Virus record (IMG/VR): IMGVR_UViG_3300050821_009780
Location: 1-64,000 of that record
DNA length: 64,000 nucleotides
Reading direction: 5' to 3' (one strand)
Origin: a virus
Both the position numbers and the translations under genes were made by a program. The notes under the pieces are model-generated. The model saw only the letters and a list, made by a program, of their open reading frames with translations. It was not told where the DNA came from and made no database searches. Shown here piece after piece: positions 30,794 to 55,461 of this stretch (positions are counted from its first letter, which is position 1; every line of letters starts with the position of its first letter).

Positions 30794-33700
30794 TCACCCC
30801 CTTCCGCTGAGGTAGGCAAGCTTGTTGCTCGCCCGGGTGATGGAATCAGAAGGCTTCTCGGGGACCGGATTAATAATGTTGACATCGCCGGTGACGTTGA
30901 CGCCGACCCGCGACTGCGCGGCCCCGGCCTCGGACAGCGACCGGGACGGCTCGGCCTTGCGGGTGCTGCGGTCCATCCCCCGGCCGAACGCGTCGGGCAG
31001 GGCCACCGGCATGTAGCCGTTGGTGCCGGGCACCACGATGGAGAACCGGCCGGCCACGTCCCGCAGGGTGGGCGTCACCAGCCCGCCCCCGGCGAAGCCG
31101 AGCCCGCCGTCGCCGGGGGAGACGGGCGTGCCGGGGCCGCCGAGAATCACCTCGGGGGTGAGGTTCTGCGGCGCGACCGTGACGGGGTAGGTGGTGCCGA
31201 CGGGACCGGCGGGGGCGGGGGTGCCGCCGCCCCCGCTGCTGCTGCCGAACGCGTACTTGGTCAGCGGGCTGACCGGGCCCCAGCCGCCGGCGTTGCCTGC
31301 CTGCATCTGCCAGTCCACGGCGGTGCGGTCCCCGTAGATGCCCAGGGTGGTGGGGGAGTGGACGTGGCCCTGCCAGATCTTGCCGCCGTGCACGTCGTCC
31401 ACGGCCAGCATGTAGTCGGTGGCGCCGGAGACCGGCGGCCACTTCCAGGTGACCTGGTCGCCCGCGTTGGACACGGCCACGTGGCCGGGGAAGGTCTGCG
31501 GTTCCCGGCCGGCCGAGGAGGACCCGGTCACCCCGGTCAGGGTGTAGGCGTGCACGGCGCTCGGCGGCCCCCAGCCGCGGCCGTTCAGTGCCTGCAGCTG
31601 CCAGCTGACGATCTTGTGGCCGTCGAACGCGAGGGTGACGGGCGACGACACGAAGCCCTGCCACAGCCCGTCGGTCGGGCCGGCGGTCACCGTCAGCCAG
31701 TAGGCGGTGGCCCCGCCGACGGGCGGGAACTTCCAGGTGACGGCGTAGCCCTTGTTGGTCACGGTGACCGGGCCGGGCGAGGTGCGCGGCGCCCCGGCGG
31801 GGGTGGCGTAGCCGGGCTTCGGCGCGGTCGTGCCGGGCGGGGACGGCTTGGGGTTGACGGGGGGCGGGGTGACGGGGGGCGGGGGCGGCTGCTTGGTGGC
31901 CGGGGCGGGGACGGTGCTGGCGATCCCGCCGCTGGCCAGGCCGGGGATGATCAAGCCGCCGGCGGCGTTGTTGGGGATGCCGGCGATGGACGCGGCCATC
32001 GCCAGGCCGGCCGGGTGCACGTCGTTGACCCCGGCCCGCTCCACCCCGGTATCCCAGTCCTGGGCGGCCGAGTTGAGCGAGGTCTCCCCCTCCATCGTGG
32101 TGATCGTGGCCTGGTCCCCGCTGGAGTTGACGAAGGCGATGATGGCCGGAAGCTGGGTCTTCATGCCGCCGCTGAAGTCGGCGTCGGAGATGGCGGAAGG
32201 CGGGGTCCAGCCGATCAGGCCGCGCCCGCCGGAACCGGACGCGGCCGGGTTCCAGCCCGACTCGCCGTCAATGGACGCCACCGCGCCGGCGGCGGCGACC
32301 TTGTGGCCGCCGAACAGGTTGGCCAGCAGGTAGCTGTAGCCCTCCTTGGCGTTGGCCAGGTCGGACCCGGTGGCCCCGCCGGCCGCTGCCGCCGCCGCGG
32401 CGGCCTTGGCGGCCTGGGCGGCGGAGATGGCCGCCGTGAGCGCGGCGGTGTTCAGGTTCAGGTTGACGGCGAAGGCGGCGCCGCCGGAGGCCAGCCCGGG
32501 CACCATCAGGGGCACCATCATGCTGGACCCGTCGCCGCCGACCGCGCCGCCGCCGGCCCACTGCTGACTGGCCGCGATGCCCCGGCTGCCGGCCCCGAGC
32601 CAGGAGTCGGCCTGGTTCAGGCGGTGCAGGTAGCCGGGGCCGTACTGCTGCTCCAGCGCCATCCGGGCGGACTTGCGGACCACGAACTCGCCAGGCATGA
32701 GCATGGCGTGCACGCTGTCGTGCTCCCCGGCCCCGGCGACGGAGCCGTGCTGCGCCTGGCGGCTGGCCCCGATGGGGCCGCCGGATGCCTTGACGGTGAC
32801 GGTGACGTTGCCAGACGCGTTCTTGATGCCGGTGTCGATGTCGTTGGTGATGGCGGTCTCGGCACCCTGGGCGGCGTTCCCCAGCGCGGTGGTAATCGCG
32901 GTGCCTGCCTTGGTGACGGCAGCGGGCAGGGTGCTGTTGAAATAGGTATTCATCGGGGTCTCGACCTGACCCACGAACACCAGCATGGCCGAGGCCCAGG
33001 CGGTGCCCCAGGTCGAGACCATCTTGGTGAGGTAGCTGTTCATGGTGACGGTGAAGAACAGCCCGAGCGGGGTCTCCACGGCCTTCTGGAAGTCGGCGGC
33101 GGCGTTGGACCAGGTAGAGGTCCACAGCGCAGCCGTCTTGCTGAAGTACCCGGCGATGGTGACGGTGAAGAACAGCCCGAGCGGGGTGATCACGGCCTTC
33201 TGGAAGTCGCCGGCGGCGTTGGACCAGGAGGTGTTCCACAGCGAGACGGCCTTGTTCAGGTACCCGGACATGGTGACGGTGAAGAACAGCCCGAGCGGGG
33301 TCTCGACCGCCTTCTGGAAGGTGCTGGCGGCGGTGGACCAGGTAGAGGACCAGAGCGCGCCCGCCTTGCTCAGGTAGCCGGCCAGGGTGGAAGTGAAGAA
33401 GGTCTGGACGGGGGTGACGACATCCTTGGCGAAGCTGGTTCCCGCCCCCGTCCACAGCGTGCTCATCTCGGTGGTGGCGCTGCCCGCCCACCCCTTGAGG
33501 CTGCTGGTAAAGAACGTCTGCACGGGCGTGGCGACGTCCTTGGCGAAACTGGTTCCCGAGCCGCTCCAGAGCGTGTTCATCTCGGTCGTGGCCGAGCCGC
33601 TCCAGCCCTTGAGGCTGGAGGTGAAGAAGGTCTGGACCGGGGTAACGACATCCTTGTTGAAGCTGCTCTGCGCGCCGGACCAGAGCGTGCTCATCTCGCT

Positions 33701-36700
33701 GGCGGCGCTGCCGGTCCACCCCTTGAGGCTGGAAGTAAAGAACGTCTGGGCCGGGGTAACGACGTCCTTGGCAAACGCGCTCTGCGAACCGGACCACATG
33801 GTGGTCATCTCAGAGCTGGCGCTGCTGCTCCAGCTCTTGAGGCTGGAGGTAAAGAACGTCTGGACGGGGGTGACGACGTCCTTGGTGAACGCCCCCTGGG
33901 AACTCGACCAGGCGGCGCTGACCTCGGTGCCCGCGCTGCCGGTCCAGCCCTTGAGGCTGCTGGTAAAGAACGTCTGCGCCGGGGTGACGACATCCTTGGT
34001 GAACGCGGCCTGCGAGCCAGACCAGGCGGTGCTGACCTCGGTGCCCGCCGTTCCCGCCCACCCCTTGAGACTGGAGGTAAAGAAGGTCTGGGCGGGGGCG
34101 CTGACATCCTTGGCGAACGCGCTCTGCGACCCGGCCCAGGCGGCGGTCACCGAGCTCTGCGCGGTCTTGGCCCAGCCGGGGAGCTGGCTGGCGAAGAAGG
34201 TCTTCGCCGGATCTGCGACGTTCTTGGTCAGGGCCGAGCCGGAAGCGGTCCACAGGGCGGCGACCGAGGCCTGCGCGGCCTTGACCCAGCCGGGGAGCTG
34301 CCCGGTCAGGAGGTTCTTGACCGGGGTCGTCAGGTCGGCGTTGAGCGAGGTGCCGGCCTTGGTCCACATGCCGGCCAGGATGGTGGAGTCCGCCGCGACG
34401 TCCGCCTTGAGCACGCCGCCGAACGCCGTGTTGAACTCCACCCCCATGAGGGTGGCGGCGACCTTCCACAGGTTCGCAATCTGCCCGAGGGCGGTCTGGA
34501 ACTCCCCGACGAGGCCGCCGCCCGCGAAGTGCTGCACGCCGCCCTTGACGGTGCCCGCGGCTGCGGGCTGCGGACCCTGCTTCTTCGCCTGCTGGGCGGC
34601 CATCTGGGCCGGGGTGAGCTGCGCCGTCGTCCCCTTGTGCGCCTGGTTGAGCTGGTCCAGCACGCCGGGGCCGTGCTGCGCCTTCAGCGCGTCGGCGGCG
34701 GGCTTCTGCAGGACGAACTCGCCGGGGGTGAGCATCGCGGGCACGGTGTCGCCCTGGCCCTGGCCGGGGACGTGGCCGCCCGCCGCCTTCTTGACCGGCG
34801 GGGGAGGGCCGCCGCCGGGGAGGCCGGGGAGGCTGCTCCCCGCCCCGGCCGGGATGGAGCCGAAGAGCGTGTTGAAGCTGGCCGCGAAGTTGGCCGCCGC
34901 CTGCGCGCCGGCCTTCGAGAACGCCTGGGTGAGCGGGTTGGTGTTGGCCTGCGGCGTGATGATGGTCTTGTTGATGGTGGCGATTGCCTGGTTGCTGAAG
35001 CCCAGCGAGTGGAGCAGGGTGTCCAGCTGCGTCAGGTCGGTCTTGGGACTGATGTTCAGCGAGTTGAGGAAATCAATCTGCTGCTTGTTGAGGTTCAGCT
35101 TGTCGTAAGTCTTTTGCAGGTTGTCCTGGAACGTAACGGTGCTTGCCCCGACGACCAGCCCGTCGATAATCTTGATTTGCGCTGTGGTAAGACCCAGGTT
35201 GCTCAGCAGCTTGTTAACCGACTGCAAATTAGCACCCGGCTTAATCTGCATCTGGTTGATTTTATCGATTATGCCCTGGGGAAGACCGAGGTCATGGAGA
35301 ACGGTGTTCAAGTCGTTCTGGAACGGGGTCATATTCGGGTTGATAACCTGAGCATTGATTTTCCCGATTTCCGTCGGGGTCAGCTTCAGGTCGGACAGCA
35401 TTTTATCCAGCTGGGTCAGGTCGGTCTTGGGCGTCAGCTGGAGCTTGTCCACCGCCTGTATCTGGGCCGGGGTCAGCCCGATCTGCTTGAAGAACGTGTT
35501 CCAGGCGGTGAAGTTGGTCCCCGGCCCGATGATCAGCTTGTTGATGGCGGCGATGTTCTTCTGCGATATCCCGAGGCTCGACAGCCAGGCATCGTAGACG
35601 TGGAAGTCGGTCTTCGGCCCGATCGTGAACTTGTTGATGGCGGTGATCTGGGCCGGGGTCAGGCCGAGCTTGACGTAGTAGTTGTCGAAGGCCTGCGCCC
35701 CGACCGGCGGCGCGATGACCATTGCATCGATCTTGGAAATGGCGGCCGGGGTCAGGTGCAGCTGGCTGAGCAGCTTGTTGATGTCGGTAAGGTTGGCGCC
35801 CGGCTTGATAACCAGCGCGTTGACGGCGGATATCTGCTTGGGAGTGAGCTTCAGGGTGTTGAGGTAGGCGTCGATGGCGGTCGTGCTGACCGGGACGTGC
35901 ATAATGAGCTGGTTGATAGCGGCGACCTGCGGCGGAAGGAGCCCTATCTTCGCCAGCATGGCGTCGATGGCGGTCACGCTGGTGGTCGGGGCAATCCGCA
36001 GCTTGTTGATCGCAGTTATCTTCTGGATGGACACGCCCGTGTGCGCGGCCAGCTCGTCGATTCCGGCCCAGTCCACCTGGGGCTTGATGACCTGCTTGTT
36101 GGCCGCGACGACGTTATCCGACCAGAGGGTCAGCGCAGTCTGCCGGGCCACGCCCATCGCGCTCAGGGTGGTCAGGAACTCGGCCTTGGCCTGGGCCATC
36201 CCCGTCGGGGTGGTCCCGTACACGGCAATCAGCGCGTTGGCGATGGCGTTGGCACCGGTGATGTCCTGGGGGGAGATGATCCCCTGCTTGAGCTGATCCT
36301 GGGCCGAGTGGATGGTCGTCTCGAAGTTCGCGACGGCCTTGGTCATGCCCGGCATGTTGACCAGCGCCGCGCCGATCGCCTGGTTGAGGTCGGTGTTGAC
36401 GGCGGCAGCCAGGTTGATGGTGTCCTGCTGCAGGTTGGACGACGAGGTCTCCAGGTACCCGACCTGCTTGTTGAGGTCCGCCGTCGTCTTGGACGCCTGC
36501 TGGTTGCCGCCCGACCACTTCACCAGGGCCGCGTAGGTGTCCGCCCCGGTGTAGCCCATCTGCTGCGCCAGGGCGTAGGCGGCGTTGGTCGCCTCCTTCG
36601 AGCCGTCGCCCTGGGCCAGCAGCACGTTGACCATGTCCTGCCCGGCGTGCTGCAGGGAGCCGTAGGACGCGGCGGTGTTGCCGGCGGCGGCGTTCTGCAG

Positions 36701-39700
36701 CTGGAGCTGGCTGTAGAGTCCCTGCGCCGCAGTGGCGTTCTGCTCCCAGGACTGGCGCAGCGTGAGGCTGTTGGCGTTCAGCCCGGTCATGGACGCGCCG
36801 GCCGCCTTGGCGTTCGTGCTGACGGTGTTGATGCCCGTCAGGAACGTCTCCAGCTTGGTCTCGCCGCCGGTGACCATGGTGTAGAACTGGGTGAAGTCGC
36901 CGGTGAGGGTGGTGATCTGGCTGTTGGTGGTCTCGCTGGCCAGGGCGACGGCGTCGATGGAGTTGCCGACCTGGTTCATGTGAGTCGAGACCTGGTAGCC
37001 GGCGACCCCCATGTTGGTCCAGCCGGTGACCAGCGCGTTGACCTTGCTTATCTGGACCGACATGCTGTCGGTGACCTTGACCCCGGCCAGGTCCATCAGG
37101 GCGAACGCCTGGTCGCCGGTCACCCCGAACTTCTTCATGCTGTACGAGACCGTCTGGATGGCGGCGTCCCACCGGTCGTTATCCGCGACCAGGGCCGCGT
37201 AAGCGGCGCCGCTCTGCGCCTTCAGCTGCTGGAACGACCCGAACAGGTCGGTGATGGCGCTCTGGAAGTGCCCCGAGGTGATGTCGCCCCAGAAGCTGAC
37301 GGCACCCCCGGCTCCCGTCTGGTTGACCGGCTGGTTGAGCTCCTGCCGCAGCACGCCGTACTGCGTGCCGAGCTTCTGCATGTCGGTCTGGAGCTGACTG
37401 AACCCCTGGGCGGCGTTGAGGTTGTTCAGCTGGGTGTTCATGGCGGAGATCTCGGCCGGGATCGCGCCGCTGGCCTTGTTGAACTGGTAGAACTCGTAGG
37501 CCGCGCCGCCGACGGCACCGGCGATGGCGAGCCAGGCCCCGGCCGAGATGCCGGCCAGCGCCCCACCGATCTTCTGGATGGTGCCGCCGAGCCCGGCCGC
37601 CTCCGGCTCGGCGTCCTTGGCAGCGCCGCCCAGCTTGGCGACGCCCGACTCCAGCTGGCTCACGTTCGCGCCGCCGACCAGGGCCATGGAGGCGGTGGCC
37701 TTCTCCACGCCGCCCAGCCCGGACATCGCGGCCTGGGTCTCCGGGGTAATCTTCCCCAGGTCGGCCGCCAGGCCCTCGGCGCTCTTGCCGGATGCCGCGA
37801 CGGAGATGGCCGCGGCGGCAGCCTGCTTGTCGGTCAGCCCGAACGCGTCGGCCAGGGCCTGGACATCGCTGTTCTGCGACGTGACCTTGACCATCTGGTC
37901 GTAGGTCAGGCCCAGGTTCCCGGCCATGGCCAGGGCGGCGCTGTCGCCCTTGGCGAACAGGGTGCCGATGTTCTCCAGTTCCGGGGTGAGCTGCCCCATC
38001 TGGATCAGCTTGGCGTTGGACGCGCCGACCGAGCTGGCGAGCCCGCCGAAGACGTTGCTGCCGCCCGTGATCTTGGCGACCAGGCCGCCGAACTGGGTGA
38101 TGAGGGTGCCCGTGTACCGGGTCAGGTCGATGAGGGCGGTGGAGAGCAGCCCGCCGTAGTGGACGACGGCGAAGACGGCGATGCCGAAGGCAATCACCTG
38201 CGGGCCCATGGCGTTCATGGCCTTGGCCAGCAGCGAGAAGGCGTAGGCGAGTCCCTCGAAGAGCAGCTCGGAGACGTGGGTCATCTGCCCGGCCTGGAGG
38301 AACTCGGCCCCGATCTTGAGGATGGAACCGCCGATGGAGCCGAGGATCTTCAGGTCGTTGACGGCGGTCTCGATGAGACCGGACAGCTGCCCCGAGTGGG
38401 AAGTGAGCGCCTGATCTACCTTGATGAAGGTGTCGGTGATGAAGGTGCCGGTCTTCTGGGCAACCCCCTGCATCAGGCCGAGGACGCTGGTGAACGTCTG
38501 GCCGAACGCCTTGATGGGCGCGGTCTTCTGGGTCAGGGCGTCGATGGCGGCCCCGTACATGGTGACCACGGTCGGGGCCATGGCCGCCTGGATGGACCGG
38601 ATGGTCACCGGCATGGGCTTCATGGTCGAGTCGAGCGTGCCCATCTTGGTGCTCAGCGGGCCGATGTGATCGGTGCCGAGCACGTCCGCGCCGGTGCCGA
38701 GGGCGTCCAGCGCGGTGTGCAGCCCCTGGACGTGCGCGAGCAGGTCCAGGACGGACGGCTCGGCGGCGACGCCGAACGCGCCGAGGGCGGTGCCGGCGGC
38801 GATGACCGCGGGCACCAGGACGATGAAGAAGTCGATCAGGGTGTGCAGGGCGACGGCCCACACGCTGATGGTGGCGGCGAACGGGATGCTCTTGAACGCC
38901 CCGCCGAACAGGGTCAGGTCCTTGGTCCAGCCGCCCCAGGCGGCGATGGCGAGGTTGACCAGGCCGGTGGTCTTGGCTACGGAGGCGCCGCCCTGGTCTA
39001 CGGACTGCGTGGCGCCATCCTGCGCGTTCTTGACGAGGAGGGCGGCGGCTGCCGCGTTCTTGGCCGCTTCGGCAGCGCTCATCGTGGACTGGCCGAGCTT
39101 GTCGTAGCTGCCGGAGGCCCCGCTGACGGCGTCCCCGGCCTGCTGCGCGGCCAGCGCCTCGGCGACCATGCTCTTGGCGAACTGCGCCGCCGTCGGCGGC
39201 CCCTGGGCCTGGAGGCCGAACCAGTGCTCGTACTGCGCGGCGTTGGACTCCAGCGCAGCACCGTTCGCGTTCAGCGCGGCATCGGCCTGCTGCACCACCG
39301 GGATGAACCGGGCCATGGACAGCTCGCCGGACTGCACGGAGCCGACGAACCGGGTCCAGTCCACGTCGTTCGCGGCACTGCCGACCTGCTTCAGCGCGGC
39401 GGCGTCGGCCATGGCAGCGGCGGCGTTGGCGTTGAACCCCTTGGCCGAATCGTCGGCGTCGGTGCCGGCCGTCTGGGCGGCCTTTCCCGCGGCCAGCAGC
39501 GCGGCCTGGGTGTACAGCTGGCGGTTGCCCAGGTCGGTGGTGGCCTGGCCCATCTTCGCCAGCTTGGCGGACGCCTCGTCGGCCGACATGCCGGTGGCCA
39601 GGAACGCGTCGGCCAGCTTCCTGGCGGCGGCGGCCTGGATGCCGGCGGAATCACTGGTGAACTTGGCGGCGTTGGAGGCCCGCGCGGCCTCGTAGTCGAA

Positions 39701-41710
39701 GGAGTCGCCCGCCTGGTGAATCTCGTCGGCGGCACCGTGCACGGCCCCGCCCAGCCGGGTCCAGGCGGCATCGTCGTTAGGGTTGGGTGCCGACTTGTCC
39801 ACGTCACTGCCCAGCGTGGACAGCACGGCCTCAGCCTGCCGGACAACAGGGATGAACCGGGCCATGGACAGCTCGCCGGACTGCACGGAGCCGACGAACC
39901 GGGTCCAGGCGGCATCATCCGCCGGGTTGGGCGCGGCCTTGGCCAGGGCGGCGGCTTGCTCGGCCAGGGCGGCGTCGGCCTGCTTCACCACCGGGATGAA
40001 CCGGGCCATGGACAGCTGGCCGGACTGGACCAGAGCGATGAACTTCGCCCAGTCGTCGTCATCCGCCGGGGTGGGGACCGGGATGTCCGGCGGAGGCCCG
40101 CCGCCGCCCCCGGCGTGGCCGGCCGTGACCAGTTCCTCGGTGACCAGCTCGGTGACGTGATCGTTGGCGTGAAGGCGGGCCTGGAACGCCATCCACTCGG
40201 CGATGGCCTTGTTGATGCCCGTCAGCTGGACGGCGGTCTTGGCGTAATCGGGAACCTCGTTCAGCTTGGCAATCCAGGCTTCCAGCTGGGCCTTGGCCTG
40301 GTCGTCGGTGAACCGGGCGGTGGTGTCGAGCACCTCGGGGACGATGCCCAGGTCGCGGAGCCAGATCTCCAGGTCTCCCTCGGCCGCTGCCGCGCTGAAG
40401 ACGGCGTTCACGGTGACGCTATCCGGGAGCGCCTCCAGCTGGGCTATCAGGGCGGTGAGATCGGCCTTGGCCTTCTCGTCGTCGAAGACCACCCGGACGG
40501 TCACCTCGGCGGGAACGGACCGCAGCTGGGCCAGCAGCGCGGCGAGGTCATCCTTGGACGCCCGGTCGTTGAAGACCGCGTTGATGGTGACGTTCTCGTT
40601 CTCCGGGGTCTTGCCGACCGCGATAAGCGACGTGGTGATGTGCTCGGGGATGCTGTGGAGCACGGACTTCCACAGCGCGACGTCGGCCAGGCCCTGCTCC
40701 GGGTCGGCCTTCAGCTCGGTGGTAACCGAGGTCGGCACCCCGGCCAGGGCGGAGTTCAGGGCCTGCGCCCCGGCGACGCTGCCCTCCTCGCCCAGCTGGG
40801 TAACGGACTTGTGGGTACCCTCGATCGCGTTGTAGTAGGCGAGGGCGGCGTCGGTGTTGGACTTGTACAGCGCCGCCCGGCGCTCCAGCTCGGCGTTGAA
40901 GTCACGGTACAGGGCGGTCTGCTTCTGCAGGTACTGCAGGTACTGGTCGGCGGTGAAGTACCCGGCCCACTCGGCACGGTTCATGAGGAGCTTCTGGGTG
41001 TACTCGGTCTGGCGCCACGCGTAAGCCTGCTGGGGCGTGGTGAACATGAGCCAGCGCTGCCGGTTCAGCAGCGTCTCGTACTCCAGCTCCTTGCGCATGT
41101 CGGCCAGGTGCGTGCCCATGTCCGACCGTCCGCCGAACAGCGACTGCTCGTTGTACCGCTTGTAAGCATCCGACGTCGTGTTAACGGCGGCGGTCTCATC
41201 CTTTAGTACACTTATTTCTTCCTTGCGGACGGAGATAAGCCGCTGCTCGTCCGATATCTCGTCAACAACAGCCCGGTCCAGCTTCTCCAGCGTGCTGGTG
41301 ACATTCCGGTACGCCTCGTCGGTCGCCGTGACCTTGTTTACCGTCTCGTCCCGGACGGTAAACGAAGAAATAGTATCCTTGTACCGCTTATAGGACTCAC
41401 TGGCCAGGTCAACGGCCGACACTTCTTCTTTAAGTCCGTCAAGAACAGAACTGTGGTAGCTCTTGTAAGAAGCAGCAAGGGCCTCAATCGAATTCTTCTG
41501 CAGCTTCAGCGACTCGATTGAGGTGTCGCTGTAGTCCTTGGATGCCGCCGCCAGCGAGTCAAGTGCAGTCCGCTCCTCGGTGAGCTTGCTGATCTCATCC
41601 TTGTGAGCGTCTACCAGCTTCTGGTACTCGGCAGTCTGCGCCTTAGCGGCGTCGCCTCCGGCCTTTCCCAGTGCCTCCAGGGCAGCCTTAGCCTCGGCTG
41701 CCTTGCGCAT
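30794..41710 (-). CDS. tail tape measure protein, 3638 aa
   Basis: Sets tail length and spans the tail lumen. Residues 1-330 are coiled coil. About 550-810 hold three near-identical segments with SGELSMARFIPVV, and about 940-990 are hydrophobic. About 1890-2250 hold roughly 15 repeats of the form LGLTPAQIAAINKLVI-GP. About 2470-2890 hold repeats around TFFTSSLKGW. About 3120-3225 resemble the phage tail-lysozyme family (VASIDGESGWNPAASGSGGR, LIGWTPP), so it may cut peptidoglycan during entry. Two Fn3-like domains at about 3315-3495 end the chain. At ~0.15 nm per residue the tail would be about 0.5 micrometre. ATG 41710 has no ribosome-binding site and the true 5' end appears disrupted. Confidence 0.9.
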   Translation of the reverse strand: MRKAAEAKAALEALGKAGGDAAKAQTAEYQKLVDAHKDEISKLTEERTALDSLAAASKDYSDTSIESLKLQKNSIEALAASYKSYHSSVLDGLKEEVSAVDLASESYKRYKDTISSFTVRDETVNKVTATDEAYRNVTSTLEKLDRAVVDEISDEQRLISVRKEEISVLKDETAAVNTTSDAYKRYNEQSLFGGRSDMGTHLADMRKELEYETLLNRQRWLMFTTPQQAYAWRQTEYTQKLLMNRAEWAGYFTADQYLQYLQKQTALYRDFNAELERRAALYKSNTDAALAYYNAIEGTHKSVTQLGEEGSVAGAQALNSALAGVPTSVTTELKADPEQGLADVALWKSVLHSIPEHITTSLIAVGKTPENENVTINAVFNDRASKDDLAALLAQLRSVPAEVTVRVVFDDEKAKADLTALIAQLEALPDSVTVNAVFSAAAAEGDLEIWLRDLGIVPEVLDTTARFTDDQAKAQLEAWIAKLNEVPDYAKTAVQLTGINKAIAEWMAFQARLHANDHVTELVTEELVTAGHAGGGGGPPPDIPVPTPADDDDWAKFIALVQSGQLSMARFIPVVKQADAALAEQAAALAKAAPNPADDAAWTRFVGSVQSGELSMARFIPVVRQAEAVLSTLGSDVDKSAPNPNDDAAWTRLGGAVHGAADEIHQAGDSFDYEAARASNAAKFTSDSAGIQAAAARKLADAFLATGMSADEASAKLAKMGQATTDLGNRQLYTQAALLAAGKAAQTAGTDADDSAKGFNANAAAAMADAAALKQVGSAANDVDWTRFVGSVQSGELSMARFIPVVQQADAALNANGAALESNAAQYEHWFGLQAQGPPTAAQFAKSMVAEALAAQQAGDAVSGASGSYDKLGQSTMSAAEAAKNAAAAALLVKNAQDGATQSVDQGGASVAKTTGLVNLAIAAWGGWTKDLTLFGGAFKSIPFAATISVWAVALHTLIDFFIVLVPAVIAAGTALGAFGVAAEPSVLDLLAHVQGLHTALDALGTGADVLGTDHIGPLSTKMGTLDSTMKPMPVTIRSIQAAMAPTVVTMYGAAIDALTQKTAPIKAFGQTFTSVLGLMQGVAQKTGTFITDTFIKVDQALTSHSGQLSGLIETAVNDLKILGSIGGSILKIGAEFLQAGQMTHVSELLFEGLAYAFSLLAKAMNAMGPQVIAFGIAVFAVVHYGGLLSTALIDLTRYTGTLITQFGGLVAKITGGSNVFGGLASSVGASNAKLIQMGQLTPELENIGTLFAKGDSAALAMAGNLGLTYDQMVKVTSQNSDVQALADAFGLTDKQAAAAAISVAASGKSAEGLAADLGKITPETQAAMSGLGGVEKATASMALVGGANVSQLESGVAKLGGAAKDAEPEAAGLGGTIQKIGGALAGISAGAWLAIAGAVGGAAYEFYQFNKASGAIPAEISAMNTQLNNLNAAQGFSQLQTDMQKLGTQYGVLRQELNQPVNQTGAGGAVSFWGDITSGHFQSAITDLFGSFQQLKAQSGAAYAALVADNDRWDAAIQTVSYSMKKFGVTGDQAFALMDLAGVKVTDSMSVQISKVNALVTGWTNMGVAGYQVSTHMNQVGNSIDAVALASETTNSQITTLTGDFTQFYTMVTGGETKLETFLTGINTVSTNAKAAGASMTGLNANSLTLRQSWEQNATAAQGLYSQLQLQNAAAGNTAASYGSLQHAGQDMVNVLLAQGDGSKEATNAAYALAQQMGYTGADTYAALVKWSGGNQQASKTTADLNKQVGYLETSSSNLQQDTINLAAAVNTDLNQAIGAALVNMPGMTKAVANFETTIHSAQDQLKQGIISPQDITGANAIANALIAVYGTTPTGMAQAKAEFLTTLSAMGVARQTALTLWSDNVVAANKQVIKPQVDWAGIDELAAHTGVSIQKITAINKLRIAPTTSVTAIDAMLAKIGLLPPQVAAINQLIMHVPVSTTAIDAYLNTLKLTPKQISAVNALVIKPGANLTDINKLLSQLHLTPAAISKIDAMVIAPPVGAQAFDNYYVKLGLTPAQITAINKFTIGPKTDFHVYDAWLSSLGISQKNIAAINKLIIGPGTNFTAWNTFFKQIGLTPAQIQAVDKLQLTPKTDLTQLDKMLSDLKLTPTEIGKINAQVINPNMTPFQNDLNTVLHDLGLPQGIIDKINQMQIKPGANLQSVNKLLSNLGLTTAQIKIIDGLVVGASTVTFQDNLQKTYDKLNLNKQQIDFLNSLNISPKTDLTQLDTLLHSLGFSNQAIATINKTIITPQANTNPLTQAFSKAGAQAAANFAASFNTLFGSIPAGAGSSLPGLPGGGPPPPVKKAAGGHVPGQGQGDTVPAMLTPGEFVLQKPAADALKAQHGPGVLDQLNQAHKGTTAQLTPAQMAAQQAKKQGPQPAAAGTVKGGVQHFAGGGLVGEFQTALGQIANLWKVAATLMGVEFNTAFGGVLKADVAADSTILAGMWTKAGTSLNADLTTPVKNLLTGQLPGWVKAAQASVAALWTASGSALTKNVADPAKTFFASQLPGWAKTAQSSVTAAWAGSQSAFAKDVSAPAQTFFTSSLKGWAGTAGTEVSTAWSGSQAAFTKDVVTPAQTFFTSSLKGWTGSAGTEVSAAWSSSQGAFTKDVVTPVQTFFTSSLKSWSSSASSEMTTMWSGSQSAFAKDVVTPAQTFFTSSLKGWTGSAASEMSTLWSGAQSSFNKDVVTPVQTFFTSSLKGWSGSATTEMNTLWSGSGTSFAKDVATPVQTFFTSSLKGWAGSATTEMSTLWTGAGTSFAKDVVTPVQTFFTSTLAGYLSKAGALWSSTWSTAASTFQKAVETPLGLFFTVTMSGYLNKAVSLWNTSWSNAAGDFQKAVITPLGLFFTVTIAGYFSKTAALWTSTWSNAAADFQKAVETPLGLFFTVTMNSYLTKMVSTWGTAWASAMLVFVGQVETPMNTYFNSTLPAAVTKAGTAITTALGNAAQGAETAITNDIDTGIKNASGNVTVTVKASGGPIGASRQAQHGSVAGAGEHDSVHAMLMPGEFVVRKSARMALEQQYGPGYLHRLNQADSWLGAGSRGIAASQQWAGGGAVGGDGSSMMVPLMVPGLASGGAAFAVNLNLNTAALTAAISAAQAAKAAAAAAAAGGATGSDLANAKEGYSYLLANLFGGHKVAAAGAVASIDGESGWNPAASGSGGRGLIGWTPPSAISDADFSGGMKTQLPAIIAFVNSSGDQATITTMEGETSLNSAAQDWDTGVERAGVNDVHPAGLAMAASIAGIPNNAAGGLIIPGLASGGIASTVPAPATKQPPPPPVTPPPVNPKPSPPGTTAPKPGYATPAGAPRTSPGPVTVTNKGYAVTWKFPPVGGATAYWLTVTAGPTDGLWQGFVSSPVTLAFDGHKIVSWQLQALNGRGWGPPSAVHAYTLTGVTGSSSAGREPQTFPGHVAVSNAGDQVTWKWPPVSGATDYMLAVDDVHGGKIWQGHVHSPTTLGIYGDRTAVDWQMQAGNAGGWGPVSPLTKYAFGSSSGGGGTPAPAGPVGTTYPVTVAPQNLTPEVILGGPGTPVSPGDGGLGFAGGGLVTPTLRDVAGRFSIVVPGTNGYMPVALPDAFGRGMDRSTRKAEPSRSLSEAGAAQSRVGVNVTGDVNIINPVPEKPSDSITRASNKLAYLSGRG

Positions 41711-51411: not shown

Positions 51412-51855
51412 ATGACAGGAACCATCACCACCAACGCCCCCCTGCGCGGACTGCTGCGCACCGCACGGCGCCACACGCGGCTGTCGCAGAAGGAAGCGGC
51501 AGCGAAGGCCGGGGTGTCCTCGGCCTGGTGGAAGCGCGTGGAATCCGCCTACGAAACCTCAGTCTCCGCCGAGACCCTGGCCGACATGCTCGACGCCGTC
51601 GGCGTCCTGCCGGGCCACCTGGACGACCTGGGCGAGCACGTCCTGGCCGAGCTGATCATTGCCCGGCAGTCGTTCCGCGACACGGTCACCTCCTCCCAGG
51701 AAAGCCTGGAGGAGTACCTCATGAACGCCCCCGCTGCGGACGACCTGCGGCACGAACTTATCACCTACGTCCGCACGAGAAGCGTGCTGCGTACTATACG
51801 TAGTGACCCGTTCACCGACCAGTTCCATCCCGATTCGGCGGAGAAGCACAGATGA
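51412..51855 (+). CDS. XRE-family helix-turn-helix regulator
   Basis: 147 residues, on the opposite strand to almost all other genes. LRGLLRTARRHTRLSQKEAA then AKAGVSSAWWKRVES (about 10-45) is a Cro/cI-type HTH. VSAETLADMLDAVGVLPGHL completes the DNA-binding domain. The C-terminal ~75 residues are helical and may dimerise. With its own promoter and an adjacent inverted-repeat operator it is placed like a phage repressor. No protease or peptidase motif of LexA-type repressors is present. Confidence 0.8.
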   Translation: MTGTITTNAPLRGLLRTARRHTRLSQKEAAAKAGVSSAWWKRVESAYETSVSAETLADMLDAVGVLPGHLDDLGEHVLAELIIARQSFRDTVTSSQESLEEYLMNAPAADDLRHELITYVRTRSVLRTIRSDPFTDQFHPDSAEKHR

Positions 51856-52334
51856 TATTCAACGCAGTCACCGCCGTGACACTCGCCCCGACGGCAGTCA
51901 GCGCATCCTACTCGGCCCTGCAGGCAGAGACGAGACTGCTCATCCAGCTGAGCTTCTACGCCGCCCTGCTGTTCCTGGTGCTCTACACCATCCGCACCGC
52001 CTGGTGGCACACCGTGCACGGCCGGACGCTCGCGGCGCTGGCAGCCGCCTTCATCATCGTGATGCTGCGCGTCATGCTGGTGTACTGGCACCTCCTCGGC
52101 TCCCCCGACAAGGCCCCCGACGCCCTGGACTGGGGGTCCACCAGCTGCCTGCTGCTGGCTCCGCTGGCGTTCCTCACGATGAGCTGGCAGCTGGCGCGCA
52201 AGCCGGTCCGGCGCTGGGCGGCGAAGCTGCGGCCGAGGCACCCGGCACCGGGCGACGACCCGCTGGGTCCCGGGGCACCGGAGAAGAAGCTGAGCGAGTA
52301 CCCGGAGCGCAACCCGCGGCACAGCCAGGACTAG
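51852..52334 (+). CDS. multi-TM membrane protein coupled to the XRE gene
   Basis: 160 residues; ATG overlaps the XRE stop (ATGA). Three or four TM segments at about 37-57, 67-90 and 100-118, with FLVLYTIRTAWWHTVHGRT resembling the holin-like protein at 43738-44127. The C-terminal 45 residues are basic/Pro-rich and cytoplasm-like. Pairing with a repressor suggests superinfection exclusion, but a lysis role is equally possible. Confidence 0.65.
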   Translation: MIFNAVTAVTLAPTAVSASYSALQAETRLLIQLSFYAALLFLVLYTIRTAWWHTVHGRTLAALAAAFIIVMLRVMLVYWHLLGSPDKAPDALDWGSTSCLLLAPLAFLTMSWQLARKPVRRWAAKLRPRHPAPGDDPLGPGAPEKKLSEYPERNPRHSQD

Positions 52335-53327: not shown

Positions 53328-53798
53328 TCAGCCTCCCGAGCGCGGCGCAAGGCCGCCGGCCGGGGCGGCACCGCCACTGCCGTCGGTCACGTAGTCCCAG
53401 ACCGCCTGCCGCACGCCCCGCTCGAACTGGGGGCCGCCGCCGTCGGTGTAGGCGCCGAAGAAGTTGTGGCCTCCCTCGGGATGGTTGTGCGTGGCGCGGT
53501 GGCCGCGGGCCAGCTCGTAGATGCCGGGGTAGCGGGAGTAGTCGATCTCTCCCTCCCAGTCATCGATGCCGGCGCTGGACCGGGTGATGCCGGACCCCTT
53601 GAGGTACCCGGTGATCACGTGCACGTGGGCCTCGGTGAGGACGGCGCCGAGCGCGAGCGCCGCCTCCATGGCGAGCAGGGTCTCCCCGGCCGGGCCCTTG
53701 ATGAGCCGGTCCAGCTCCGGCCCGGCGGCGTGGGGGAAGCCGTAGAGCTCGGAGTTCACCTGCCAGGAGACGCTGACGTGGCTGAAGCTGATGGCCAT
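53328..53798 (-). CDS. HK97 gp10-like neck protein
   Basis: 156 residues between stopper and tail terminator genes. FSHVSVSWQVNSELYGFPHA, then ETLLAMEAALALGAVLTEAH, and GYLKGSGITRSSAGIDDWEG; the YPGIYELARGHRATHN part matches the arm common in gp10-like (minor tail/neck) proteins. Position and size support a head-tail joining role. Confidence 0.65.
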   Translation of the reverse strand: MAISFSHVSVSWQVNSELYGFPHAAGPELDRLIKGPAGETLLAMEAALALGAVLTEAHVHVITGYLKGSGITRSSAGIDDWEGEIDYSRYPGIYELARGHRATHNHPEGGHNFFGAYTDGGGPQFERGVRQAVWDYVTDGSGGAAPAGGLAPRSGG

Positions 53799-53824: not shown

Positions 53825-54259
53825 CTAGTGGATGTGCTGGATAACGGCGATGATGACCTCGGTCACGATGACGACAACAGATATCACCGCACCGATGATG
53901 AGCATGCGCTGCTGCACGACCGCCTGGTCTTTCCGGCGGATCTCCTTCTCGGTCCGGGCCCCGGTCTCGATGACCGACAGCCGGTCCTCGATGGCGCGCA
54001 GCCGGAGATCGACCGAGACGGCATGCTGGTCGAACAGGTCGCGTCCTACCTTGGTCCCCGCGATATCCCCCATCGCGTCCCGGAACTCGTTCATCCCGCC
54101 CAGCCGCACGGCGAGGTCAGCCGCGGTCTGGGACACCTGGGCACGCTGCTCACTGAACCGCCGGTCCATCTCCCCCTGCAGCTCGCGGTAGATGTGGTCG
54201 ATGTACTCGCGGAAAGAAACGCCGTCAGCTGGCGCCTCCTGGTGACGATGGATGGCCAT
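53825..54259 (-). CDS. C-tail-anchored coiled-coil membrane protein, 144 aa
   Basis: A long charged helix (VSFREYIDHIYRELQGEMDR, then RLRAIEDRLSVIETGARTEK) ends in a C-terminal TM (MLIIGAVISVVVIVTEVIIA, about 119-140). Proteins of this shape occur in phage lysis or membrane-interaction functions. It is next to the potassium channel gene; the two could form a membrane complex. Confidence 0.6.
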   Translation of the reverse strand: MAIHRHQEAPADGVSFREYIDHIYRELQGEMDRRFSEQRAQVSQTAADLAVRLGGMNEFRDAMGDIAGTKVGRDLFDQHAVSVDLRLRAIEDRLSVIETGARTEKEIRRKDQAVVQQRMLIIGAVISVVVIVTEVIIAVIQHIH

Positions 54260-54275: not shown

Positions 54276-54611
54276 CTATCTGGGCTGCGCCAGGTGCTTC
54301 TTCAGCTCCTCGTGCCGCTTGTCGATGTGCAGCTTGATGTCCCCGGAGGTGAGCCCGGTGGTGACGAGGGAGAACGTGGCCGCGAACAGCGGGATGACGG
54401 TGAGCATCATGGCGACGGCGATGGCGTGCGGGGCCCAGCCGTGCGGGGCGACATCGCCGTAGCCGACCGTGGTGGCGGTGGTGACGGCGAAGTACAGGCC
54501 CACGGCAGCGGAGACATGCTGGGCGGCGGCGAACAGCAGGCCGAGAACGATGTCCAGTGCCACGGCGGCGGCCATGATGCCCGCCGCCCGCCTGTGGTGC
54601 CTGTTGCCCAT
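54276..54611 (-). CDS. two-TM potassium channel (KcsA/Kcv-like)
   Basis: 111 residues, ATG 54611 overlapping the upstream TGA. TM1 at about 11-33 (GIMAAAVALDIVLGLLFAAA), then a pore helix and filter VGLYFAVTTATTVGYGDVAP with TTVGYGD at 47-53, the signature of K+ selectivity. TM2 is at about 63-88 and a charged C-terminal helix (HIDKRHEELKKHLAQ) probably supports tetramers. Minimal viral channels are known in chloroviruses, where Kcv depolarises the host on entry. The gene sits among neck genes, so late expression is likely. Confidence 0.85.
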   Translation of the reverse strand: MGNRHHRRAAGIMAAAVALDIVLGLLFAAAQHVSAAVGLYFAVTTATTVGYGDVAPHGWAPHAIAVAMMLTVIPLFAATFSLVTTGLTSGDIKLHIDKRHEELKKHLAQPR

Positions 54612-54973
54612 CAGCCCCCCTGCCCCCCCAGCAGTGCCACTATCTGCTCCAGCAGCTCGCGCTCGGACTTCTCGGGCCTGGCCTTCTCGTGGTGGATGTT
54701 GCACCAGGGGGTGCCGCTGACCTTGTGCCGCCCGATGCGCAGGCAGCCGGGCTCGTGGCAGTTCAGGCTGTGCCACAGGCCGAGGATCATGCCGCTGAAC
54801 CCGAGCGCGGTGATGATCATGGGGCCGACGCCGGACACGAAGTCGTAGTTCTGCGACGCCTGGGTGTCGATGCCGAAGAAGTGCGCCCAGCCGTGCTCGT
54901 ACATGACCAGCGCCCAGGCGCCTCCTGCCCCGAGGAGAATCCCGGAGAGGAACAGGACCGCGAACCGCCTCAC
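54611..54973 (-). CDS. membrane protein with Cys/His C-terminus, 120 aa
   Basis: GTG 54973 overlaps a TGA. Two TM segments (FAVLFLSGILLGAGGAWALV; GVGPMIITALGFSGMILGLW) then NCHEPGCLRIGRHKVSGTPW and CNIHHEKARPE, a CxxxxC...CxxHH zinc-like site seen in actinophage membrane proteins. Its stop and the channel start share bases, so both products should be made together. Confidence 0.65.
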   Translation of the reverse strand: MRRFAVLFLSGILLGAGGAWALVMYEHGWAHFFGIDTQASQNYDFVSGVGPMIITALGFSGMILGLWHSLNCHEPGCLRIGRHKVSGTPWCNIHHEKARPEKSERELLEQIVALLGGQGG

Positions 54974-55461
54974 GGGGCACCTCCGGGGAAGGGCGTCGGG
55001 CTGCCGGGACCGGACTGGGCCGCGACCTCGACGACCTGGGTCTCGCAGTGCGCCGCGCCGCGGTAGGACTGGAGCTGATCGGCCGGGTTGCGCATCTCGA
55101 AGGTACCGGAGACGGGGCCGGAGACGCACAGGAACCGGTCGCCCGCCTTCACCAGCGGCACCCCGCCGGCATCGGTGACCGGGTCGTAGTACATGACGCC
55201 GAACCGGTCCTGCGGGCGGCCCGCCGTCAGCGGCGGCGGCTGATCCTTGCCGGGGCGCAGCCGGCCGAGGGCGATGCGGCAGGCGAGCAGGCCGGGCTGG
55301 TCGAGCACCACGTCCACCACGTCGGGGACCGCGTTCCAGGTGATGGACATGCCGCCGGACTCCTCCAGCACCGGGAGCAGCCGCAGCACCTGCACCACCG
55401 AGGAGTACAGGCCGCGGACCGGGGACAGGCCGGCCTGGTAGGGCTGGTAGGGAGTCGTCAC
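54970..55461 (-). CDS. head-tail connector (stopper-like)
   Basis: 163 residues. VQVLRLLPVLEESGGMSITW, then GLLACRIALGRLRPGKDQPP and RFGVMYYDPVTDAGGVPLVK, GDRFLCVSGPVSGTFEMRNP; a compact beta-barrel-like protein of the size and place of siphovirus stoppers, between adaptor and neck genes. Assignment by position and general pattern. Confidence 0.6.
   Translation of the reverse strand: MTTPYQPYQAGLSPVRGLYSSVVQVLRLLPVLEESGGMSITWNAVPDVVDVVLDQPGLLACRIALGRLRPGKDQPPPLTAGRPQDRFGVMYYDPVTDAGGVPLVKAGDRFLCVSGPVSGTFEMRNPADQLQSYRGAAHCETQVVEVAAQSGPGSPTPFPGGAP

Follow-up and report, generated by a model that had tools for sequence, protein, structure and literature searches.

A K+-channel-type pore in a tailed phage, its coupled Cys/His partner, and altered selectivity filters among its relatives

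The window analysed here is a stretch of 64,000 nucleotides (positions 1 to 64,000) of the IMG/VR record IMGVR_UViG_3300050821_009780, which is 143,503 bases long, has a GC content of ∼69% and was found to contain no tRNA genes. With genes called by a simple GC3 rule, the late genes of this phage were located on the minus strand and were colinear with those of Microbacterium phage Magritte (OR553905) through terminase, portal, capsid (50% identity), connectors, tail terminator, glycosyltransferase and major tail protein. Judging from this likeness and from the GC content, the host is probably an actinobacterium. Three genes for membrane proteins were observed between the homologues of Magritte gp28 and gp29 (Table 1). 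Because gp28 and gp29 are directly joined in Magritte, with an overlap of 4 nt, the trio was either inserted at a conserved junction or lost there in Magritte.

Table 1. Positions of the pore gene, its neighbours and their features in the window
Feature	Position	Strand	Basis or remark
K+-channel-type pore, 111 aa, two-TM (TM1, pore helix, TTVGYGD, TM2, C-terminal helix)	54276..54611	(-)	Pfam, PHROG, AF2, Foldseek
Selectivity filter TTVGYGD, residues 47–53	54453..54473	(-)	Translation and KcsA alignment
Partner: two-TM membrane protein with C-terminal Cys/His knuckle	54611..54973	(-)	Pairs with pore across phages
Cys/His motif of partner (C72 H73 ... C77 ... C91 ... H94 H95), probable metal site	54689..54760	(-)	
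TGATG stop-start overlap, partner to pore	54609..54613	(-)	
Third gene: coiled coil and C-terminal TM; inside insertion, outside conserved pair	53825..54259	(-)	
Flank: Magritte gp28 homologue (head-tail region protein, unannotated)	54970..55461	(-)	E=1e-18
Flank: Magritte gp29 homologue (minor capsid protein)	53328..53798	(-)	E=2e-9

Several other features of the phage were recorded (loci are denoted below by L numbers). A two-gene plus-strand island, consisting of an HTH_31 regulator and a Phage_holin_2-like membrane protein, lies at 51412–52334 (+) within the minus-strand late operon. A very long ORF of 3638 aa at 30794–41710 (-) matches the tape-measure-type ORF of L023, and another one, of 2797 aa, was seen in the record of L009 (68558–76951, -). 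L023 (IMGVR_UViG_3300036790_000048, 139,587 bases) is a relative of the window phage with tail genes 50–66% identical; its pore-partner pair occupies a different junction, directly before the tape-measure gene, and has the altered filter TAGADI.

The original prediction described the first gene as a minimal potassium channel encoded by a phage. Translation gave the 111-residue reading frame and the filter as claimed, and the channel identity was upheld by both family and fold matches. The protein matched Pfam Ion_trans_2 (PF07885) with 44.8 bits (E=1.2e-11; cut-off 22.5), phrog_14690 with E=2.9e-12 and, in a profile comparison, KcsA with E=1e-12. Its AlphaFold2 model (pLDDT 81.7, 13-row alignment) contained helices at residues 2–31 (TM1), 35–46 (pore helix) and 59–107 (TM2 and C-terminal helix), and Foldseek aligned the model with the MthK and KcsA pores (TM-score by target ∼0.8, probability 1.00, E∼0.002), in agreement with the predicted two-TM layout. 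In the alignment with KcsA, Y40/F41 of the window pore correspond to W67/W68, T44 to E71, Y51 to Y78 and D53 to D80, and the filter has the T-x-G-Y/F-G form. A cytoplasmic domain is nearly absent, as the protein consists of the pore and a short C-terminal helix. The evidence for the channel identity of the window protein is strong.

The predicted stop-start coupling was also seen: the TGA of the partner gene and the ATG of the pore gene share one base. The partner, expected to be a two-TM Cys/His protein, was modelled as two long helices followed by a hairpin-helix knuckle (pLDDT 88.6). No family was found for it in Pfam, PHROG or NCBIfam. A fold search returned nothing with E<1; several of its 12 weak matches were zinc-finger domains, which is no proof of metal binding. 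C72, C77 and C91 were invariant in 37 aligned members, and the motif is probably a metal site.

Scans of IMG/VR that used either the pore or the partner as query yielded 45 distinct pores once duplicate contigs had been discarded, including that of the window and one from a bacterial MAG contig (L007), apart from which all close relatives came from uncultured viral contigs. An intact Cys/His partner was located just upstream of the pore in 41 of the 45; it was frameshifted in L004, and none was seen in L013, L014 and L062. The two genes overlapped at start and stop or lay within 2 nt of each other in 36 of 40 measured pairs. When the partner profile A5 was used in a scan blind to the pore, a pore ORF was found immediately downstream at all 21 new loci (19 distinct). 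The membrane module of three genes put forward in the original prediction therefore stood in part: pore and Cys/His protein form a conserved cassette, but the third gene, although present as an ORF, had no family match and is not a regular member. A second partner subfamily (FWSGFGSD type) was mostly solo, with a pore following at 2 of 49 loci (L120 and L164), so that the partner belongs to a wider phage family and the pore goes with one part of it. The motif of this subfamily, FWSGFGSD...NCHxxGCWRxGRH...CxxHH (L118–L166), is common in IMG/VR without a pore, often before endolysin-type or tail genes.

Two Kv-like candidates without a partner (L081 and L082) were dropped from the collection. 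A check of 50,697 phage database records brought up distant ion transporters of the Lactobacillus type but no close relatives of the window pore; two further pores and four partner queries drew no match in this phage collection, and plasmids yielded no close relatives of the window pore. The Cys/His protein was common in IMG/VR contigs only; the phage collection did not bear out the idea that sequenced actinophages often carry it. A literature search, lying mostly outside subscription journals, gave no paper on phage-encoded K+ channels.

VGYGD was present in 22 of the 45 pores, and the filter was non-canonical in 23. The altered filters were mostly one residue shorter; the position of the gap in these is ambiguous, and "filter Cys" here means a Cys as the residue after T-x-G. 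The forms observed included TVGC-D (L017, L026, L032, L048), TDGC-D (L033, L037, L057, L068), TVGC-NP (L038, L041), TVGA-D (L002), TAGA-D (L023), TVGG-D (L027), TLGG-D (L018), TDGG-D (L051) and TVGTG- (L005, L006), together with TSGNSP in L003, which is not short. The 22:23 ratio is no estimate of frequency, because one scan targeted GC[DP] patterns. Nevertheless, the distinct loci of the pore-blind partner scan comprised 8 canonical and 11 altered filters, indicating that altered filters are common even when unsought.

A pore-only tree was made with the filter columns excluded and rooted on canonical bacterial channels; with 82–84 columns and 44–48 rows, parts of it are weak, and the branches of L021 and L027 are long. 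A single origin of the altered filters was rejected by the AU test both with the outgroup (p=0.001) and without it (p=0.0016). At least 3–4 filter changes were forced by well-supported branches, and the best trees needed 6–7. The dN/dS values of altered pores were 0.11 (L040/L041), 0.17 (L038/L041), 0.175 (L005/L006) and 0.25–0.57 for other pairs, and were below 1 for both filter types, indicating that the altered pores are under purifying selection and not in decay. Since roughly every second relative in the collection has an altered filter, the family as a whole does not have K+ selectivity as its function; what the members have in common may be cation permeation or the pore fold itself.

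It was found that all 14 members with a filter Cys have a second Cys in the pore helix, at the position of KcsA Trp68. The pore-helix Cys occurred alone in 3 members, and 28 had neither. This coupling gave p=4e-9 in Fisher's test, and p=8e-4 within the altered filters, with kinship ignored in both; two kinship-aware pairs tests gave 4.9 pairs the same way and 0 opposite of 6, and 2.8 the same way and 0 opposite of 3, each with too few pairs for significance. A single origin of the Cys pair was rejected (AU p=1.7e-5), and 5 changes were needed on the tree, 3 of them forced. In KcsA, Trp68 and Tyr78 both take part in a hydrogen-bond network that stabilises the filter (PMC8217747). The replacement of both positions by Cys suggests a disulfide or a redox-sensitive contact in these members. 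A natural pair for a comparison of selectivity is formed by L070 and L120: their pores are related and their partners alike, with TVGYGD as the filter of one and a Cys-Cys filter in the other.

These data bear on the possibility that the pore does not conduct and is a scaffold, its fold being kept for the partner as a sensor or an anchor in the membrane, and the filter changes reflecting a relaxed need for conduction. The several origins of altered filters in about half of the collected members would agree with such a role, as would the frequent absence of a pore beside the partner family (47 of 49 loci in the FWSGFGSD subfamily). But TVGYGD is kept exactly in 22 deeply divergent members, a few recurrent altered forms with a coupled Cys pair are unlike free decay, and the dN/dS range is 0.11–0.57, so this explanation appears improbable.

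Bacterial relatives were sought in 397 genomes from the phylum to which the L007 MAG belongs. Leaving L007 aside, the pore was matched best by actinobacterial two-TM channels 330–355 aa long (L088–L090), whose filters are canonical and whose TM2 is the same as in the phage pores: they share with these GLYWAVTTATTVGYGD and LTAIPLFGA in TM2. Their large C-terminal region, which looks RCK-like by eye, is missing from the phage proteins, and the partner motif was not found in the DNA examined around them. The altered-filter profile matched five of the 397 genomes only, where it hit the same canonical channels. The partner itself was present in five genomes, with the pore adjoining in L007, whose contig has the same pair among chromosomal neighbours; no pore was seen beside the partner in the remaining four (the DNA near L115 is partly masked). 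This distribution fits a scenario in which phages captured the core of an actinobacterial channel. The long chromosomal relatives and the L007 contig would also suit a bacterial channel picked up by the phage and of little or no use to it; against that stand its occurrence on unrelated phage backbones, the conserved pairing and the purifying selection, and we regard this reading as highly improbable.

In the window and at many other loci the cassette was located among head-tail genes; elsewhere it was found before the terminase gene, beside an endolysin gene or at other late-block sites, the late block being the common denominator. The next gene after the pore encodes an endolysin in L003 and L018, and a LysM/transglycosylase endolysin gene lies within ∼3 kb upstream in L046, L047, L054, L056, L057 and L068. 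By eye, all of these six endolysins except that of L057, whose called start is later, have an N-terminal hydrophobic segment. Solo members of the partner family in L124 and L143 precede endolysin-type glycoside-hydrolase genes. Beside the window cassette no endolysin gene was found, Amidase_2, the family searched, being absent from the record, and the Phage_holin_2-like gene is separate, at a distance of 2 kb. It was also observed that a VIT/CCC1-like membrane protein is encoded beside or near the cassette in ∼10 loci (L003, 5157–5612; L073, 4288–4773, PF01988 E=1.3e-10; L075, 6377–6832; L083, 4848–5483; and about six more), the window being without such a gene.

From the pore homology, the canonical window filter, the coupled partner, the late-operon position, the filter changes and the Cys pair, all of them read from sequence, we tentatively propose that the pair is a late-expressed cation leak, of K+ in the window, which depolarises the host to time or trigger lysis; we hold this to be possible, at somewhat less than an even chance. 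The window pore would be a tetrameric, K+-selective two-TM channel, and the partner, made together with it, an auxiliary two-TM subunit in complex with the pore that probably binds metal. The pair would be a mobile accessory cassette inserted in the late (structural or lysis) operon of probable actinobacterial phages. Its late expression would produce a cation leak in the host membrane, with K+ efflux and a clamped membrane potential, and in relatives with rebuilt filters the leak would probably be non-selective. Because K+-selective and probably non-selective forms occupy the same slot, their common effect would be a cation leak. The resulting depolarisation would help to time or trigger lysis in the manner of a pinholin, and may also hinder superinfection. 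Pinholins form small holes, and SAR endolysins are released from the membrane by them (PMC9239132).

A role in lysis or depolarisation is plausible because some copies adjoin endolysin genes. What counts against lysis is the lack of an endolysin gene beside the window cassette, the nearby Phage_holin_2-like gene and the many copies among head-tail genes; moreover, a K+-selective pore alone would shift the potential to the K+ equilibrium and not abolish it. Instead of taking part in lysis, the pore might serve superinfection exclusion or host takeover, lowering the potential and so blocking incoming phage DNA or host transport. In support, depolarisation by the chlorovirus channel Kcv reportedly keeps the host from being infected a second time (PMC7019647); in addition, the cassette is an accessory element that moves from phage to phage, and many copies are far from recognised lysis genes. 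Exclusion nevertheless seems unlikely, as the cassette belongs to the late operon and not to early or lysogeny genes, has endolysin neighbours at eight loci and gave no defence-family match, PADLOC detecting no defence system. The late-block position, the endolysin neighbours and the analogy with pinholins lead us to favour lysis timing over exclusion with moderate confidence.

Adjustment of ions or metals was considered as well, whereby pore, partner and often a VIT-like transporter would tune K+ or divalent cations, for example for DNA packaging or virion assembly. The VIT-family genes at ∼10 loci, the probable metal site of the partner and the binding of Ca2+ by filters of the NaK C-DI type (PMC9976283) point in this direction, but such a gene is missing at most loci, the window included, and these phages have no known need for such adjustment, which leaves homeostasis with a low probability. 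Carriage in the virion, another suggestion of the original prediction, found no support in this analysis. It is unlikely for the window phage, which is tailed and would have no virion membrane.

The proposed leak could be extended to a more speculative scheme, which we consider rather doubtful as a whole. Phages would have repeatedly made a K+ channel into a non-selective pore of the glutamate-receptor type, with the Cys pair replacing the aromatic contact as a disulfide or redox switch, and would use it with a metal-binding subunit as a channel-based holin, of which the window has the K+-selective form.

As a channel, the phage-encoded window protein is of a known kind; the coupled partner and the rebuilt filters are what is new. 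With its size and variety, this phage channel family makes it possible to test what use a bacteriophage has for a channel; for algal viruses, Kcv first raised that question. TVGYGD, TVGTG-, TVGA-D, TVGG-D and TVGC-D on one scaffold of ∼110 aa amount to evolutionary experiments on ion selectivity, and natural phage sequences carry the same letters as an engineered AMPA-receptor filter. Should the pair turn out to control lysis, it would represent a type of holin derived from a true ion-channel fold. The Cys/His partner represents an unnamed family that is frequent among uncultured phages.

Compared with known channels, the window pore shares TM1, pore helix, TTVGYGD and TM2 with KcsA and MthK. 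It differs from KcsA in having shorter N- and C-termini, four extra residues (PLFA) inserted in TM2 and a Thr at the position of E71, and from both in its phage location, the coupled partner gene and the altered filters of 23 of the 45 relatives. Kcv belongs to an algal virus with an internal virion membrane, and we know of no partner gene for it. Like the window pore, Kcv (∼82–94 aa) is a minimal, virus-encoded K+ channel (PMC7019647), but the phage pore is homologous to bacterial channels, and it comes from a tailed phage. Channel-type phage proteins were already on record as phrog_14690 and as ion-transporter genes of the Lactobacillus phages PLE2 and JNU_P5. The Lactobacillus phage genes are distant from the window pore (33–39% over 75–77%), and that of JNU_P5 encodes a larger protein and lies beside Cro/CI-type regulators, not in a late operon, without a partner.

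For the altered filters, several non-selective channels offer counterparts. The CNG filters TIGE, TVGD and TIGG are non-selective (PMC10761061) and are resembled by TVGG-D and TLGG-D of the phages, although CNG channels have six TM segments and a nucleotide-binding domain. NaKTs, a two-TM channel from actinobacteria whose filter is unusual, is also non-selective (PMC5052707), but it differs from the phage pores in its filter LPMGNGPLSP and its gating by Ca2+. When a profile of altered members was compared with the PDB, NaK C-DI constructs came out on top (7PA0, E=6e-6; also 7OOR and more); these carry the AMPA-receptor residues C-DI where NaK has DGNF (PMC9976283). According to the same paper, the TTV stretch of NaK C-DI holds monovalent ions, and Ca2+ occupies three sites and passes through the pore in simulations. 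L032 and L048, with pore ORFs of 99 and ∼112 aa, have the filter TTVGCDI, identical in letters to that of these constructs, and no paper printing TVGCDI was found in the literature search, which lay mostly outside subscription journals. The window pore, with TVGYGD, has no GCDI-type filter, and its 111 aa leave no room for the ligand-binding domain of an ionotropic glutamate receptor. Unlike AMPA receptors, the phage pores are built on a two-TM scaffold without that domain, and on present evidence the likeness of the short filters in L032 and L048 is convergent. By analogy with NaK C-DI and the AMPA receptor, CNG channels and NaKTs, K+ selectivity is expected to be lost in the altered phage pores.
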